A stretch of 64,000 bases of DNA from Alphaproteobacteria bacterium (GTDB lineage Bacteria; Pseudomonadota; Alphaproteobacteria; Micropepsales; Micropepsaceae), in contig JAFKEU010000009.1 of assembly GCA_017308475.1 (NCBI GenBank), positions 1-64,000 of the forward strand, written 5' to 3'. The notes below the pieces were generated by a model that saw only the letters and a list, made by a program, of their open reading frames with translations, was not told the origin of the DNA and searched no databases. How positions within the stretch are numbered: the first letter of the stretch is position 1; the number at the start of each line of letters is the position of its first letter. A program made the position numbers and the translations under genes. Positions 694-52,527 of this stretch are shown here, piece by piece.

Positions 694-1590
694 GTGCCAA
701 AAGCCAAGACATTCCAGGACCTGATCCTGACTTTGCAGAATTATTGGGCGGCCCAGGGCTGCCTGATCCTGCAGCCCTATGACGACCAGATGGGGGCGGG
801 CACCTTCCACCCTGCCACCACCCTGCGGGCGCTGGGCCCGCGCCCCTGGAAGGCGGCCTATGTCCAGCCCAGCCGCCGGCCGACGGACGGCCGCTATGGC
901 GAAAACCCCAACCGGCTGCAGCATTATTACCAGTATCAGGTGATCCTGAAGCCGGCGCCGGAGAATGTGCAGGAGCTTTACCTTGGCTCCCTCCGCGCCA
1001 TCGGCCTTGACCCGGAGCTGCACGACATCCGCTTTGTCGAGGACGATTGGGAAAGTCCCACGCTGGGCGCCGCCGGCCTGGGCTGGGAAGTATGGTGCGA
1101 CGGGATGGAAGTGACCCAGTTCACCTATTTCCAGCAGGTGGGCGGGTTTGACTGCGATCCGGTCTGTGCCGAGCTGACCTATGGGTTGGAACGTCTGGCC
1201 ATGTATGTGCAGGACGTGGAGTTCGTCTACGACCTGGCCTTCAATAACGAGTTCCGCTATGGCGAGGTCTTTCACCAGGCCGAGGTCGAGTTCAGCGCCT
1301 ACAATTTCGAGCGCGCCGACACCGACATCCTGTTCCAGCATTTCAAGGATGCCGAGAAACAATGCCGCGAACTTTTGGACGGCAAAAAGCTGGTGCTGCC
1401 CGCCTATGACCAGTGCATCAAGGCGTCGCACGCCTTCAATCTGCTTCAGGCACGTGGCGTGATTTCGGTCACCGAACGGGCTGCCTATATCGGGCGGGTG
1501 CGGGCACTGGCCCAGGCCTGCTGTGCAGCCTGGCTGGAATCGCCGATGGGCGCCTACAGGCCCCGCTATGCCGCCAAGGGGCGCATGTAA
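694..1590 (+). CDS. glyQ: glycyl-tRNA synthetase alpha subunit
   Basis: Alpha chain of the bacterial alpha2-beta2 glycyl-tRNA synthetase, which carries the class II catalytic core and charges tRNA-Gly in the cytoplasm. The product is about 298 residues, normal for GlyQ. Its N terminus ([17 protein letters not shown], then [16 protein letters not shown]) is the highly conserved start of the family. GTG at 694 is chosen because it sits a few residues before the conserved FQDLI; the frame is open further upstream, but that part is unlike GlyQ and overlaps the preceding gene. The stop overlaps the glyS start (TAATG), so the two subunits are translationally coupled. Confidence 0.97.
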
Positions 1591-3806
1591 TGCCCGATCT
1601 GCTGCTGGAACTGTTCAGCGAGGAAATCCCTGCCCGCATGCAGGTGGGCGCAGCGAAAGACCTTGAGCGCCTGGTCGTGGGTGCGCTGTCCGATCGTGGC
1701 CTTCTGTTCGAGGCGGCCAAGGCTTTCTCAGGGCCGCGCCGGATCACGCTGGCGATCACCGGCCTGCCGGCGAAGCAGAGCGATGTGCGCGAGGAACTGA
1801 AAGGGCCCAAGGTCGATGCGCCCGCCGCCGCCATCGAAGGCTTTTTGAAGAAGACCGGGCTTAGCAAGGAGCAGTTGACGGTTCACTCCACGCCCAAAGG
1901 CGATGTCTATATGGCGGTGATCGAGCGCGAAGGCCGCGAGACCGCCGCCGTGCTGGCCGAGATCATCCCGGAGGCGATGGCCAGACTGCCCTGGCCCAAA
2001 TCCATGCGCTGGAAGCCGGGTGTTTCCACCCGCTGGGTGCGTCCCCTGCATTCCATCCTGGCCAGTTTCGATGGCGAGGTGGTGCCGTTCAGCTTTGCCG
2101 GGGTTTCCAGCGGTCTGCATACGCGCGGGCACCGCTTCCTGTCGGATGGCAAGATCGAGGCACGGCGCTTCGAGGATTATGAGCACAAGCTGCGCGCTGC
2201 CCATGTGATTTTGGACGCCGACGAACGCGCCGCGGTGATTTTCGAAGGCGTCAAGCAGGCAGCCTTCGTCCATGGACTGGAAATGATCCCGGACGAGGGG
2301 CTGCTGGCCGAAGTGTCGGGCCTGGCCGAATGGCCGGTGATCCTGACTGGCACCATTGAAGACCAGTTCATGGACGTGCCGCCGGAGATTCTTCAGACCT
2401 CCATGCGCACGCATCAGAAGTATTTTTCCCTGCGCGATCCCAAGACTGGCAAGATGGCGAACCGCTTTGCCCTGGTCGCCAACATGATCGCGAAGGATGG
2501 CGGCAAGGAGATCGTGGCGGGCAACGAACGGGTGCTGCGCGCCCGCCTGTCGGACGCCAAATTCTTCTGGGATGAAGACCGCAAGCGCAGGCTGGATAGC
2601 CGCGTCGATGACCTGAAAGGCATCGTCTTTCACGCAGATATCGGCAGTCAGTACGAGCGTTCACAGCGGCTCGAAATTCTCGCAGGGTTTATCGCTCACG
2701 AATTGAATTGTGATTTTCGAAAAGCCGCGAGGGCTGCTCGTTTGTCGAAAGCAGATCTCACAAGTGGGATGGTCGCCGAATTTCCAGAATTACAAGGGTG
2801 CATGGGCGGTTATTACGCTCTCAACGACAATGAAGATATCCAAGTCGCCGAAGCGATCGCGGAGCATTATAAACCTGTCGGGCCGTCTGATCGGGTGACG
2901 ACCTCCAAGATCGCATCTTCGGTGGCAATTGCAGACAAGCTCGATCAGCTTGTTGGCTTTTTCGCAATTGGGCAAAAACCAACAGGGTCAAGCGATCCAT
3001 TTGCTTTGAGACGCGCTGCGCTGGGTGTTATCCGAATTTGCTTGGAGAACGGGTACCGAATTCCTATCGCGAAGTTTGCAACAATTGCGGGTCGGTTAGT
3101 TATGTCCGCAATGATGGAGAGTGCGAGAGTAAAGCTTTTGAATAAGGTCCCATATTGGGAGGAGTTGAAAGATAAGAACGTCTTAAAGCAGTTGCTGACG
3201 GTTTCCGACAAAGCACGGAAAGCTCTCGCTGAGGGCGCGTTCGAAGAGTATCCGCCCTTTGATTGGGAAGTTGAGCGCGCCAATAATCTATTATCCTTTT
3301 TTGCTGATCGTCTGAAAGTAGCGCTGAAAGAGCAGGGCACCCGTCACGACCTAATCGATGCGGTGTTCAGCCTCGGCAGTGAAGACGATCTGGTGCGGCT
3401 GGTCGCCCGCGTCGAGGCGCTTCAGAAATTCCTGAAGACCGACGACGGCGCCAACCTGCTGGCGGGCTACAAGCGCGCCGCCAACATCCTGAAGCTCGAA
3501 GAAAAGAAGGATAACCGCACCTATCTGGGCAAGGTCGACGAGGCTTTGCTGGCCGAGCCCGCCGAACAAGCGCTGCATGCGACGCTGGCAAAGGCCATTG
3601 GCGCTATCGGCCCGAAACTGGATGCGGAAGATTTCGAAGGTGCCATGCGCGAAATGGCGGCGCTGCGCGCCCCTGTCGACGCTTTCTTCGATACGGTGAA
3701 GGTTAACGCCGACGATCCGGTGCTGCGCGACAACCGCCTAAACCTGCTGGCGGGCCTGCGCGCGGCGCTGCACCGGGTGGCCGACTTCTCGAAGATCGAA
3801 GGGTGA
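1590..3806 (+). CDS. glyS: glycyl-tRNA synthetase beta subunit
   Basis: Beta chain of glycyl-tRNA synthetase, needed for tRNA recognition. About 738 residues, slightly longer than the usual ~690. The start is ATG at 1590, overlapping the glyQ stop by one base; the N terminus [17 protein letters not shown] is typical. DLLLELFSEEIPA and the later RMRTHQKYF-like and GLVAEFPELQG-like stretches are family hallmarks. Oddity: from about 2630 to 3350 (residues ~347-587) base composition and codon choice drop to a much lower GC level than the flanks, with many TTA/TTG/AAA/GAA/ATT codons, while the frame stays intact. This looks like a recombined segment; see findings. Confidence 0.96.
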   Translation: MPDLLLELFSEEIPARMQVGAAKDLERLVVGALSDRGLLFEAAKAFSGPRRITLAITGLPAKQSDVREELKGPKVDAPAAAIEGFLKKTGLSKEQLTVHSTPKGDVYMAVIEREGRETAAVLAEIIPEAMARLPWPKSMRWKPGVSTRWVRPLHSILASFDGEVVPFSFAGVSSGLHTRGHRFLSDGKIEARRFEDYEHKLRAAHVILDADERAAVIFEGVKQAAFVHGLEMIPDEGLLAEVSGLAEWPVILTGTIEDQFMDVPPEILQTSMRTHQKYFSLRDPKTGKMANRFALVANMIAKDGGKEIVAGNERVLRARLSDAKFFWDEDRKRRLDSRVDDLKGIVFHADIGSQYERSQRLEILAGFIAHELNCDFRKAARAARLSKADLTSGMVAEFPELQGCMGGYYALNDNEDIQVAEAIAEHYKPVGPSDRVTTSKIASSVAIADKLDQLVGFFAIGQKPTGSSDPFALRRAALGVIRICLENGYRIPIAKFATIAGRLVMSAMMESARVKLLNKVPYWEELKDKNVLKQLLTVSDKARKALAEGAFEEYPPFDWEVERANNLLSFFADRLKVALKEQGTRHDLIDAVFSLGSEDDLVRLVARVEALQKFLKTDDGANLLAGYKRAANILKLEEKKDNRTYLGKVDEALLAEPAEQALHATLAKAIGAIGPKLDAEDFEGAMREMAALRAPVDAFFDTVKVNADDPVLRDNRLNLLAGLRAALHRVADFSKIEG

Positions 3807-47884: not shown

Positions 47885-47978
47885 AGGAGCGCCGGGCAGC
47901 CCGGAGCGGTTCGTAGCGGCAGCGTACGAACAGGAGCGTCGCCCGCGCGACCGAAATAAATGAAGCAGTCTGGAAAAT

Positions 47979-48052
47979 TGGAGGCCACGCCCGGAATTGA
48001 ACCGGGGTACGCGGATTTGCAGTCCGCTGCGTCACCACTCCGCCACGTGGCC
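47979..48052 (-). tRNA. tRNA-Cys (GCA)
   Basis: 74 bases including CCA. Acceptor stem GGCCACG pairs with CGTGGCC, discriminator T (U73), as expected for Cys. Anticodon loop CTGCAAA (GCA). T-arm GGTTCAATTCC. Complete on the minus strand. Confidence 0.95.
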
Positions 48053-48283
48053 TCGTCTTGCGTCCGCCGGCGAACCGGCAAGCGGCCGGCGGCTATAACA
48101 GATTGCCGCGTGCCACCACAACCTTTTGCCGCTCTCGACGGGGCGACGCGCCCCGGCAGAAGCCTGCCGCCTCCGCGAAGGCGGCGCGCGCAGCGCGCCT
48201 GCCGTGAACGAAGAAAAGGCCGCGTTGTCAGGGCGGGGTGGGGGCCCTATAAGCCAGGCGCATTCTCCACCAGGGACGGCCCC

Positions 48284-48928
48284 ATGTCCGCCACCGCGCG
48301 CTTCAACATGATCGAAGCCCAGATCCGCACCAGCAACGTCACCGATCCGCGCATCCTGGCCGCCCTCGATGCGGTGCCGCGCGAGCGTTTCGTCCCCGCC
48401 GCCAGCCGGGCACTGGCCTATGCCGACGTGCCGGTGCCGGTCGCCCCCGGCCGCTACCTGCTGGACCCGCGCAGCTTCGCCAAGCTGGTGCAGCTTGCCC
48501 GGGTGACGGCCCAGGACAAGGTTCTGGATGTGGGCTGCGCCACCGGTTATTCCTCCGCCGTCCTGGCCCGCCTGGGCGGGTCGGTCGTGGCGCTGGAGCA
48601 GGATGCCGACCTGGTGCGCATCGCCACCGAGACGCTGGCCCGGGCCGTGGGGCAAATCGCGGTGACCCAGGGCGCCCTGATCGAGGGCTTCAAGGACGAA
48701 GCCCCCTATGACGTGATCTTCGTCAACGGCGCCATCGAACAGACGCCGGAAACGCTGCTGTCCCAGCTGGGCGAGGGCGGCCGCCTGGTAACAGTGATTA
48801 ACGAGGGCGCCCATGGCCGTGCCCGGCTGTTCCTCAAGGAACATGGCGTCATCGGCCAGCGGCCGGACTTCGACGCCGACGTACCCCTGCTGGCAGGCTT
48901 CAAGAAGGCGATGGGTTTCATCTTCTAG
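48284..48928 (+). CDS. protein-L-isoaspartate O-methyltransferase-like protein
   Basis: 214 residues from ATG 48284; the open frame extends upstream through the tRNA-Cys gene on the other strand, so that extension is rejected. SAM motif I KVLDVGCATGYSSAVLARLG is clear, and RERFVPAASRALAYADVPVPV and GRYLLDPRSFAKLVQLA match the PCMT family start. The C terminus (ADVPLLAGFKKAMGFIF) is short. Alphaproteobacterial members sit upstream of tolC; here popZ follows 150 bases later. Repair of isoaspartyl residues is the family role; divergent members may differ. Confidence 0.87.
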   Translation: MSATARFNMIEAQIRTSNVTDPRILAALDAVPRERFVPAASRALAYADVPVPVAPGRYLLDPRSFAKLVQLARVTAQDKVLDVGCATGYSSAVLARLGGSVVALEQDADLVRIATETLARAVGQIAVTQGALIEGFKDEAPYDVIFVNGAIEQTPETLLSQLGEGGRLVTVINEGAHGRARLFLKEHGVIGQRPDFDADVPLLAGFKKAMGFIF

Positions 48929-49779: not shown

Positions 49780-52527
49780 ATGCTCGACAAGACCTTCAAT
49801 CCCAAGGACGTGGAAGCGCGCATATCCGCCAGGTGGGAGGCATCCGGCGCCTTCCGCTGCGGCACGCGCCCCGAGGCCGAGGCATTTTCCATTGTCATCC
49901 CGCCGCCCAACGTCACCGGGCGGCTGCATATCGGCCACGCCCTCAATAACACGCTGCAGGACATCCTGGCCCGCTTCGAGCGCATGCGCGGCAAGGACGT
50001 GCTCTGGCAGCCGGGCACCGACCATGCCGGCATCGCCACCCAACTGATCGTCGAGCGCCAGCTTGCCGAGCGGCAGATGAGCCGCGTGGGGTTGGGCCGT
50101 GAGAAATTCCTGGAAGAGGTCTGGAAGTGGAAGGCCGAATCCGGCGGCGCCATCGTCGAACAGCAGCACCGGCTGGGCGCCAGCGCGGACTGGTCGCGCG
50201 AGCGCTTCACCATGGACGAGGGGCTCTCCAAAGCCGTCACCAAGGTGTTCGTCGAGCTGCACCGCCAGGGCCTGATCTATCGCGACAAGCGGCTGGTGAA
50301 CTGGGACCCGCGCCTGCAGACGGCGGTGTCCGACCTGGAAGTCGAGAATATCGAGGTGCGCGGGCACCTCTGGCACATCCGCTATCCGATCGAGGACAGC
50401 GACGAATTCATCACCATCGCCACCACCCGGCCGGAAACCATGCTGGGCGACACGGCCGTGGCGGTGCATCCCGATGACGAACGCTACAAGCATCTGGTCG
50501 GCAGGATGGCGGTGCTGCCGCTGACCGGCCGGCTGATCCCCATCATCGCCGACGAACATTCCGATCCCGAAAAGGGCACCGGCGCGGTCAAGATCACCCC
50601 CGGCCATGACTTCAACGACTTCGAAGTCGGAAAGCGCCACGAGCTGCCGCTGATCAATATCATGAACAAGGACGGCACGATGAACAACGACGTGCCCGCG
50701 CCCTATCGCGGCCTGTCGCGCGAGGCGGCAAGAAAGAAGGTCGTCGCCGACCTGGATGCCGCCGGCCTTCTGGCGCAGATCGACGACATCACCCATTCGG
50801 TGCCGCACGACGAAAAGACCAAGACGGTGGTGCTGGAACCCTTCCTGACAGAACAGTGGTACCTGAACGTCGAGCCGCTGGCGGCCAAGGCGATCAAGGC
50901 GGTCGAGGACGGGCGGACAAAATTCCACCCCGAGAACTGGGCCAACATCTATTTCGGCTGGCTGAAGAACATCCGGCCCTGGTGCATTTCCCGCCAGCTG
51001 TGGTGGGGCCACCAGATTCCAATTTGGTATGGCCCGAGCGCGGCAAACGGCAAAGTTCAGACTTCGTTTGAAGGAAAGATATTTGCCTGTGAATCGGAAG
51101 AGAAATTTCTAGAGGCCGCACAAGAGTACTACGGTCCTGACGTCAAAATTGAGATCGTCTCTTCGCGTGAAGAAGCGTTCAAGCATCCTTGGGGTATTGG
51201 AGATAATCCTCAACTCGCTGTGATTTATCGCGATCCCGACGTTCTCGATACCTGGTTCTCCTCGGCGCTGTGGCCGTTCTCGACCCTGGGCTGGCCGCAC
51301 GACACCATCGAACTGAAACGCTATTACCCGACCAGCGTTCTGGTGACGGGCTTCGACATCATCTTCTTCTGGGTCGCCCGCATGATGATGATGGGCCTTT
51401 GGTTCCTCGACGACGTGCCGTTCCGCGACGTGGTGATCCACAACCGCGTGCTGGACGAGCAGGGCGCCAAGATGTCCAAGACCAAGGGCAATGTGGTCGA
51501 TCCCCTGACACTGGTGGATGAGTTCGGCACCGACGCGCTGCGCTTCACCCTGGCACTGGCGGCCGGCCAGAACCGCGACATGCGCATCGGGCCCACCCGC
51601 GTGGAGTCGGGGCGCAACTTCGCCACCAAGCTGTGGAATACCGCCCGCTTCTGCGAGATGAACGGCTGCGTGACGGGGCCGAGCTTCGATCCCGCGGGCG
51701 TGGCCGAGACCGTCAACAGATGGATCGTGGCCGAGACCGCCGAGGCCGTGAAAGACGTGACCGCGGCCATTGAAGCCTTCCGCTTCAACGATGCGGCCAA
51801 TGCTGCCTACCACTTCGTCTATGACATTTTCTGCGACTGGTATGTCGAGATCACCAAGCCGATCTTCCAGTCAGGGAGCGATGTGGCCAAGGCAGAAACC
51901 CGCGCCACTACCGCCTGGGCACGGGACACGATCCTGAAGCTGCTGCATCCCTTCATGCCCTTCATCACCGAGGAGCTGTGGGCCCAGACGGCCACGCGTG
52001 ACAGCTTGTTGCTAGTGGCGCCTTGGCCAGAGGTAGCCCCACCCAACGAATGGTATTCGTCCTGCGTTGAAATGGTGTGGGTCATAGACCTCATCAAAGG
52101 CGTGCGCTCGGTCCGCTCCGAAATGAACGTGCCCGCCGGAGCGAAAATTCCGCTGGTCCTGACCGGCGCCTCCGCTGAAAGCGCCGCGCGGCTGGCCCGG
52201 CACATCGATGTGATTGCCACCCTGGCGCGCCTGTCGTCCGCCGAAGCTAGCGCTGAAATTCCCAGAGGCTCCGCCCAGTTCGTGCTGGGCGAGGCCGTGG
52301 TGGCGCTGCCGCTGGGTGACGTGATCGACTTTGCCAAGGAACGCGCCCGGTTGGAGAAAGACCTCAAGAAGGTGCAGGACGAAATCGCCCGCTTCGACGC
52401 CAAGCTGTCCAACGAACAGTTCGTCGCCCGCGCCCCGGAGGACGTGCTGACCGAACAGCGGGAAAAGCGCGCCGACGCGGCAGCCCTGGCCGCCCGCCTG
52501 GAGGGCGCCATCGCCCGCCTGCAATAG
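49780..52527 (+). CDS. valS: valyl-tRNA synthetase
   Basis: 915-residue class I synthetase. HIGH motif in PPPNVTGRLHIGHALNN, editing domain (TTRPETMLGDTAVAVHPDD), KMSKT in AKMSKTKGNVVDPL, anticodon-binding domain and C-terminal coiled coil (EKDLKKVQDEIARFDAKL). ATG 49780. Oddity: about 51010-51240 (residues ~411-487, SAANGKVQ through DPDVL) is clearly lower in GC with different codons (AAA, GAA, TTT, ATT), although the frame continues, as in glyS. Follows popZ by 93 bases. Confidence 0.97.
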   Translation: MLDKTFNPKDVEARISARWEASGAFRCGTRPEAEAFSIVIPPPNVTGRLHIGHALNNTLQDILARFERMRGKDVLWQPGTDHAGIATQLIVERQLAERQMSRVGLGREKFLEEVWKWKAESGGAIVEQQHRLGASADWSRERFTMDEGLSKAVTKVFVELHRQGLIYRDKRLVNWDPRLQTAVSDLEVENIEVRGHLWHIRYPIEDSDEFITIATTRPETMLGDTAVAVHPDDERYKHLVGRMAVLPLTGRLIPIIADEHSDPEKGTGAVKITPGHDFNDFEVGKRHELPLINIMNKDGTMNNDVPAPYRGLSREAARKKVVADLDAAGLLAQIDDITHSVPHDEKTKTVVLEPFLTEQWYLNVEPLAAKAIKAVEDGRTKFHPENWANIYFGWLKNIRPWCISRQLWWGHQIPIWYGPSAANGKVQTSFEGKIFACESEEKFLEAAQEYYGPDVKIEIVSSREEAFKHPWGIGDNPQLAVIYRDPDVLDTWFSSALWPFSTLGWPHDTIELKRYYPTSVLVTGFDIIFFWVARMMMMGLWFLDDVPFRDVVIHNRVLDEQGAKMSKTKGNVVDPLTLVDEFGTDALRFTLALAAGQNRDMRIGPTRVESGRNFATKLWNTARFCEMNGCVTGPSFDPAGVAETVNRWIVAETAEAVKDVTAAIEAFRFNDAANAAYHFVYDIFCDWYVEITKPIFQSGSDVAKAETRATTAWARDTILKLLHPFMPFITEELWAQTATRDSLLLVAPWPEVAPPNEWYSSCVEMVWVIDLIKGVRSVRSEMNVPAGAKIPLVLTGASAESAARLARHIDVIATLARLSSAEASAEIPRGSAQFVLGEAVVALPLGDVIDFAKERARLEKDLKKVQDEIARFDAKLSNEQFVARAPEDVLTEQREKRADAAALAARLEGAIARLQ

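Follow-up and report, generated by a model that had tools for sequence, protein, structure and literature searches.

The valS gene and its low-GC spacer

The window, the whole 64,000-nucleotide stretch of DNA analysed here, carries a gene for valyl-tRNA synthetase, valS (49780–52527, + strand; 915 residues). The protein has a class I catalytic domain (Pfam tRNA-synt_1, 1.9e-137), an anticodon domain (Anticodon_1) and a C-terminal arm (Val_tRNA-synt_C), its motifs are invariant, and its best PDB match, both by sequence and by fold, is the valyl-tRNA synthetase 1gax. Two conserved anchors within the gene enclose a spacer of 67 residues (residues 417–483; 51028–51228, + strand). The upstream anchor, WCISRQLWWGHQIPIW (residues 401–416; 50980–51027, + strand), is largely invariant in alignments of 27 and 21 rows, and in the downstream anchor, RDPDVLDTWFSS (residues 484–495; 51229–51264, + strand), residues 487–495 are invariant in the same alignments. 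The low-GC patch that the initial annotation had placed at 51010–51240 is delimitable to the spacer between these WGHQIPxW and DVLDTWFSS anchors.

The compositional anomaly is real. GC is 0.468 in the spacer and 0.481 over 51010–51240, compared with 0.629 for valS and 0.642 for the whole window, and an earlier hand count of 54 G+C among the 120 bases of 51061–51180 proved exact. GC at third codon positions (GC3) is 0.45 over the 67 spacer codons versus 0.86 in the remaining gene, and codon adaptation (CAI, with the genes in 464 kb of the same genome as reference) falls to 0.37 from 0.75 elsewhere in the gene. A CAI as low as that of the spacer was found in 9 of 7119 internal 67-codon windows of genes sampled from the 464 kb, valS and glyS excluded. 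The best 30-codon window of valS has a binomial probability of 5.6e-9, third lowest among 885 ranked ORFs. The return to GC-rich codons after the patch is indeed abrupt: GC3 beside the spacer is back to normal within 5–10 codons when nine long ValS spacers are pooled (this pool, which also underlies the composition, dispersion and flank figures, excludes G004). A second, weaker drop in codon adaptation (0.45–0.59) is seen at 51940–52119 (residues 721–780).

An AlphaFold2 model of the window ValS has a mean pLDDT of 87 and shows the spacer as short strands plus one or more helices, with low confidence at residues 421–430 and 471–480; the spacer may lie on the enzyme surface. It contains one cysteine only. 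An in-frame palindromic repeat element is not supported, as there is no direct or inverted repeat in 50900–51400 and no second copy of the spacer in the 464 kb sampled of the same genome. An intein is not supported either, the 67 residues having been weighed against the minimum intein size and Pfam having returned no intein family. Upstream of valS, the start of a called ORF (47960–48928) overlaps, over 47960–48052, a tRNA-Cys gene (47979–48052) on the opposite strand, and since the ORF runs across that gene its start is probably wrong.

The initial annotation had mentioned a second such patch in a synthetase gene of the window, and this was located in glyS (gene 1590–3806), where the GC3 profile and the GlyS loci place a low-GC3 patch with a lineage-variable insert at 2616–3308 (+ strand, ends approximate). 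GC3 drops over about 230 codons, covering shared alignment columns as well as the insert, and is 0.46–0.58 over most of the patch versus 0.68–0.86 elsewhere in the gene. Identity to congeners falls too (median 0.56–0.68 in the alignable part), and over part of this stretch GC3 is lowered in the congeners as well. Among 30 GlyS loci, 16 have an insert of 13–83 residues near one site, with GC3 of 0.43–0.73, below core in 15 of the 16. Three observations count against replacement of the patch by recombination: the insert GC3 is above core in one of the 16 loci; at glyS 626–725 identity to congeners is low and GC3 is normal; and a donor search with part of the patch (161 residues, 385 genomes of the class) gave congeners as the best matches, at 67%, with other families reaching 65% among the matches listed, so that no donor was found. 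In G010, G013 and G064 the glyS match breaks with extra DNA at another site, at query residue ~341–345.

Spacer variation in the synthetases of related genomes

The valS spacer is lineage-variable, which bears out its earlier description as an insertion-like stretch between two conserved motifs. A ValS core tree, built from the gene without the spacer, comprised 35 rows, 33 of them in the genus clade. The spacer has 26 residues in 23 of these 33 rows and is long in ten; two genomes read from other families have 31. GC3 in the ten long spacers is 0.39–0.67 versus 0.76–0.88 in the remaining gene, an eleventh long spacer (G076, 56 residues) has 0.55 versus 0.75, and short spacers are somewhat below core (0.71 versus 0.83, eight pooled). 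The long form requires 10 changes on the core tree, at least nine of them forced by well-supported branches, and its clustering does not exceed that of shuffled labels. The length of the spacer is not in step with this core tree, which is a gene tree and not a species tree.

The long ValS spacers have a short central block in common, roughly KIFVAETEEEA..YYG, which is present also in the 31-residue spacers. Beyond this block they are unalignable except in one pair (G008/G017), which aligns throughout. The outcome that the initial annotation had named as refuting, homologues sharing the stretch and its codon bias, did not turn up, GC3 being low in all ten long rows of the genus. The long forms appear unlike simple insertions into the usual genus form, because the latter is without the YYG end. 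The sisters G010 and G026 differ (75 and 26 residues, respectively), and between them synonymous identity is lost within about 5 codons upstream of the spacer and 10–30 codons downstream. Pooling of eight long rows gave an identity loss beyond 5 codons similar to that among short rows, which counts against replacement.

In SerS, the spacer between the TGQLPKF and PTAEV motifs is long (41–104 residues, motif to motif) in 29 of 37 parsed genus genomes, a fraction biased upward because the loci, drawn from 65 genomes with a match, are mainly best matches to an insert-bearing query; it is short (14–27 residues) in the other 8. Rows that could not be parsed by motif were left out (G076, G065, G089, G061, G083, G033, G034 and G003; G195 and G114 outside the genus; 14 of 29 outgroup loci, L327–L355; viral L376 and L390). 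The SerS of viral contigs (15 loci, 13 parsed) has spacers of 11–24 residues. All 29 long inserts have GC3 below that of their own core. Altogether 35 SerS inserts were compared, and they are mutually unrelated except for G000/G070, G035/G091 and G002/G020/G024. On the SerS tree insert presence is clustered: it needs 5 changes, no fewer than 4 of them forced, and 3 of 500 shuffles gave so low a number. This counts against replacement and suggests that presence may be older than content.

The inserts are unrelated within each of two SerS pairs, G069/G091 and G028/G029, with cores that are 93% and 92% identical. In G028/G029 the 20 codons downstream of the insert are 100% identical in DNA, and the 20 codons upstream are 0.70–0.73 identical with low GC3 in both genomes. 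In G069/G091 identity is lowered on either side over some 30 codons. That a sharp 3′ edge occurs in G028/G029 and not in G069/G091 was counted against replacement. In two SerS pairs that lack inserts, any drops in identity are local and smaller. Taken together with the ValS data, loss of synonymous identity has edges in SerS of G028/G029 and ValS of G010/G026, is broad in G069/G091 and extends over at most 5 codons in pooled ValS. The conserved codons beside the SerS insert are themselves recoded: the 20 codons upstream have a GC3 of 0.52 in the 29 insert-bearing genomes versus 0.72 in the 8 without (p 5e-4). Neither codons 20–40 upstream nor the 20 codons downstream differed in GC3 between these 29 and 8 genomes.

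Further synthetases vary in the same respect. IleS has low-GC3 patches in G013 and G015, weak ones in G022 and G000 and none in G028 and G009; HisS has them in G021 and G022 (five read) and AspS in G021, and in these three enzymes the patches mainly cover shared alignment columns in which identity to relatives is lowered. The G021 aspS (L446, 13992–15884) also contains about 29 codons of low GC3 that are private to it, an insert missing in six other aligned AspS. In cysS of the same genome (L437, 17167–18783, − strand) the C-terminal ~200 codons have GC3 of 0.35–0.60 and the first 300 codons 0.7–1.0. AlaS (12 genomes) shows weak dips in G064 and G070, and ArgS (12 genomes) is clean in 10, the low stretches of G064 and G030 being in genes with low overall GC3. 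A patch was absent from LeuS in six genomes (partial genes), from ThrS in eight and from ProS in eight, bar one case resembling an over-extended start. Low stretches in AspS of G013, G022 and a partial G009 locus, and in an EpmA-like gene of G021, were left uncounted; they seem to fall within over-extended starts.

Composition, constraint and apparent preference for synthetases

When SerS and ValS inserts are pooled, the four bases are near-equal at third positions. In amino-acid content the inserts resemble the core, apart from a near absence of cysteine (0.001 versus 0.009), and the same residues written with core codon usage would give a GC3 of 0.79, versus 0.49 observed. Insert GC by codon position (~0.59, 0.40 and 0.47) resembles that of coding sequence; intergenic DNA of the window genome has 0.61. 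No Pfam match over the cut-off was found in 10 inserts. Over-dispersion of GC3 among 38 inserts is slight (p 0.0097), less than many unrelated donors would give, which argues against replacement. Donors of widely different GC were rejected, since GC3 is nearly uniform across inserts.

Five insert pairs could be aligned, and in all of them pN is below pS, strongly so in G035/G091 and G024/G020 and weakly in G002/G024 (0.44 and 0.63). For the SerS insert of G035/G091, pN is 0.145 and pS 0.83, and amino-acid identity is 0.72 versus 0.86 in the core. The ratios are rough owing to saturation, and most inserts are unalignable; pN below pS in the alignable pairs indicates that at least some inserts are constrained as proteins, with synonymous sites near saturation. 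Positive selection as the visible cause of the flat codons is disfavoured on this basis.

Long spacers also occur outside the genus, and so the process is not confined to it. Among 136 matching genomes, five were noticed with a long SerS spacer and read; GC3 in these inserts is 0.72, 0.52, 0.83, 0.57 and 0.78 in hosts of 0.89, 0.87, 0.85, 0.55 and 0.82, respectively, clearly lower than the host in two and close to it in three. Long ValS spacers were present in at least eight outside genomes among the matches listed in a search of 385. Six of these eight have GC3 of 0.45–0.53 in hosts of 0.58–0.78, which counts against replacement; of the other two, one equals its host (0.90) and one has 0.75 versus 0.83. 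This last spacer (G309, L426) reads HSRAGGNP...PRLRGDD, which is like the translation of an intergenic palindromic repeat. With GC3 near 0.5 in hosts that differ, the cause could also be intrinsic.

The occurrence of both window patches in aminoacyl-tRNA synthetase genes had been put down either to coincidence or to a preference for these genes. A strict dip was defined as an internal 40-codon stretch with GC3 of at most 0.5 and flanks of at least 0.7, and called ORFs were scanned in 1.264 Mb from three genomes (986 testable ORFs) and 0.4 Mb of a fourth (309 testable). Strict dips were found in 12 of 1295 ORFs, and seven of these are synthetases (GlyS, ValS and SerS of G028; SerS, CysS, AspS and ValS of G021). 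The other five are probably gene-calling artefacts: four lack a Pfam match in the called frame, and the fifth is a polymerase X gene with a probably over-extended start, because the dip precedes the first domain. At least nine synthetases were recognised in the samples, only some families having been used as queries. The resulting contrast, 7 of 9 synthetases versus 5 of 1286 other ORFs, favours preference over coincidence; its p value of 2.4e-14 is inflated because the window and G021 stretches were chosen with most of their synthetases known. Two of the dips, those in SerS of G028 and CysS of G021, came up without having been looked for. In the 400 kb stretch, whose contig was known beforehand to hold a ValS-like gene, IleS and ThrS failed the strict test. 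A softer ranking brought up moderate dips in a sodium/proton exchanger (0.50 versus 0.86), a Cys/Met PLP enzyme (0.53 versus 0.90), a DUF1345 protein (0.53 versus 0.88) and a TrwB-like gene (0.40 versus 0.79), so that exclusiveness to synthetases holds only under the strict test.

Origin of the patches and comparison with known systems

The valS patch is neither a single old insertion nor, on this evidence, a coincidence. The best explanation, to which we attach about even confidence, is that synthetase genes of this group of GC-rich alphaproteobacteria have been patched repeatedly by short-tract recombination. A short internal segment would be replaced as a unit, comprising the spacer plus, in SerS, about 20 flanking codons. 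The replacing would be done by recombination with divergent DNA, most likely homologous recombination with the highly conserved flanking motifs as anchors, and the incoming protein segment would be unrelated to the one replaced. GC3 may lie near 0.5 because the patch is foreign, or because it is too short-lived or too divergent to have acquired the GC-rich codon usage of the host. Support comes from the nine or more forced ValS changes, the edges in G028/G029 and the upstream SerS GC3 (0.52 versus 0.72), and further from the 29 of 29 low SerS inserts, the flat third positions with protein-like composition and the concentration of strict dips in synthetases. Confidence is not higher because of the broad edges in G069/G091 and the weak pooled ValS flanks. 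The initial annotation is thus partly supported: the recombination that it proposed agrees with the recoded flanks and with the lack of relationship between inserts of sister species, and the empty donor search and weak pooled ValS flank signal speak against it.

The strongest alternative, plausible in itself and yet on balance improbable, is intrinsic. Long variable loops that do not recombine with other alleles would escape the GC-raising process, be it biased gene conversion or codon selection, and would grow and diverge in place while drifting to a GC3 of about 0.5. Flat third positions, a GC3 that is near-constant across hosts (including the six of eight low outside ValS spacers), synonymous sites that are saturated where inserts are shared (as in G035/G091) and the slightly lowered GC3 of short ValS spacers would all follow. 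Such drift alone, however, leaves unexplained the unrelated inserts between species with ~92% identical cores, the identical DNA directly after the G028/G029 insert and the lack of strict dips in genuine non-synthetase genes. Moreover, intergenic GC exceeds that of the inserts, and three of the five SerS inserts outside the genus have a GC3 close to the host.

A distinctly poor candidate is an old insertion specific to the lineage, passed on vertically and, with selection relaxed, quick to diverge. Homologous inserts do exist (G008/G017 in ValS; G035/G091, G024/G020, G000/G070 and G002/G024 in SerS), and SerS insert presence is clustered on its tree. The ValS tree disfavours this origin, the long form being scattered like shuffled labels, and neither pN below pS in the alignable pairs nor the recoding of conserved codons beside the inserts fits it. 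A single import into valS from one AT-richer donor, with nothing wider, would account for the composition step and odd codon usage of the spacer, and is very unlikely given ten ValS rows alike with at least nine forced changes, and patches also in SerS, GlyS, AspS, CysS and others; this wide recurrence strongly disfavours a one-off transfer. Least credible of all is an in-frame mobile element (an RPE-type palindromic repeat or an intein), for which the repeat-like G309 spacer might speak and against which stand the repeat-free surroundings of the window patch, the 10 inserts without a Pfam match and the mostly unrelated sequences of 35 SerS inserts.

If recurrent replacement is accepted, a question of selection follows. 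The swaps may have been kept for altering an enzyme surface recognised by an inhibitor, toxin or phage protein, a suggestion we prefer among guesses at the purpose and yet consider doubtful. More speculative still is a fuller version, in which the Ser, Val and Gly (beta) and sometimes the Ile, His, Asp and Cys synthetases would carry allele-switching modules, diversified by an antagonist and rewritten by patches that recode conserved DNA upstream of the SerS module; if true, an antigen-like hypervariable region would lie inside housekeeping translation enzymes. A search of 97 plasmid records with whole SerS and one of 72 phage records with whole ValS returned only relatives below 60% identity.

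Synthetases serve widely as phylogenetic markers and as drug targets. Repeated patching at fixed sites, if it occurs, would mean that synthetase trees combine different histories, and the patches would indicate selection acting on the enzymes of translation. The question of why bacterial coding DNA is rich in GC also finds a natural test in them, as the same conserved amino acids are written with flat codons beside a SerS insert and with GC-richer codons where the insert is absent.

Several known systems bear comparison. Cassette-like hypervariable regions, such as the target-recognition domains of restriction enzymes and antigen loci, likewise swap unrelated segments between conserved flanks and are low in GC; here, in contrast, the genes encode essential housekeeping enzymes, with no known partner selecting for diversity. 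Rickettsia palindromic elements are in-frame insertions in alphaproteobacterial housekeeping genes and differ in that no common repeat sequence or palindrome was found in the SerS inserts or around the window patch. The target of a diversity-generating retroelement is a poor fit, as the insert lengths vary here. The nearest solved structure, the class Ia Thermus ValRS (1gax), has a spacer at the same position, where the alignment breaks (query 420–481); it has 27 residues there (419–445), which do not align with the window spacer. In the open-access literature searched, no report was found of hypervariable low-GC inserts in bacterial synthetases. Andam and Gogarten (2011; PMC3191353) described the nearest published idea found, that of homeoallelic aminoacyl-tRNA synthetases which are exchanged through biased gene transfer. 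The common point would be the passage of functionally equivalent but divergent synthetase forms from one lineage to another; that exchange is described for genes, whereas the present case concerns short internal patches and hypervariable inserts in several synthetases.
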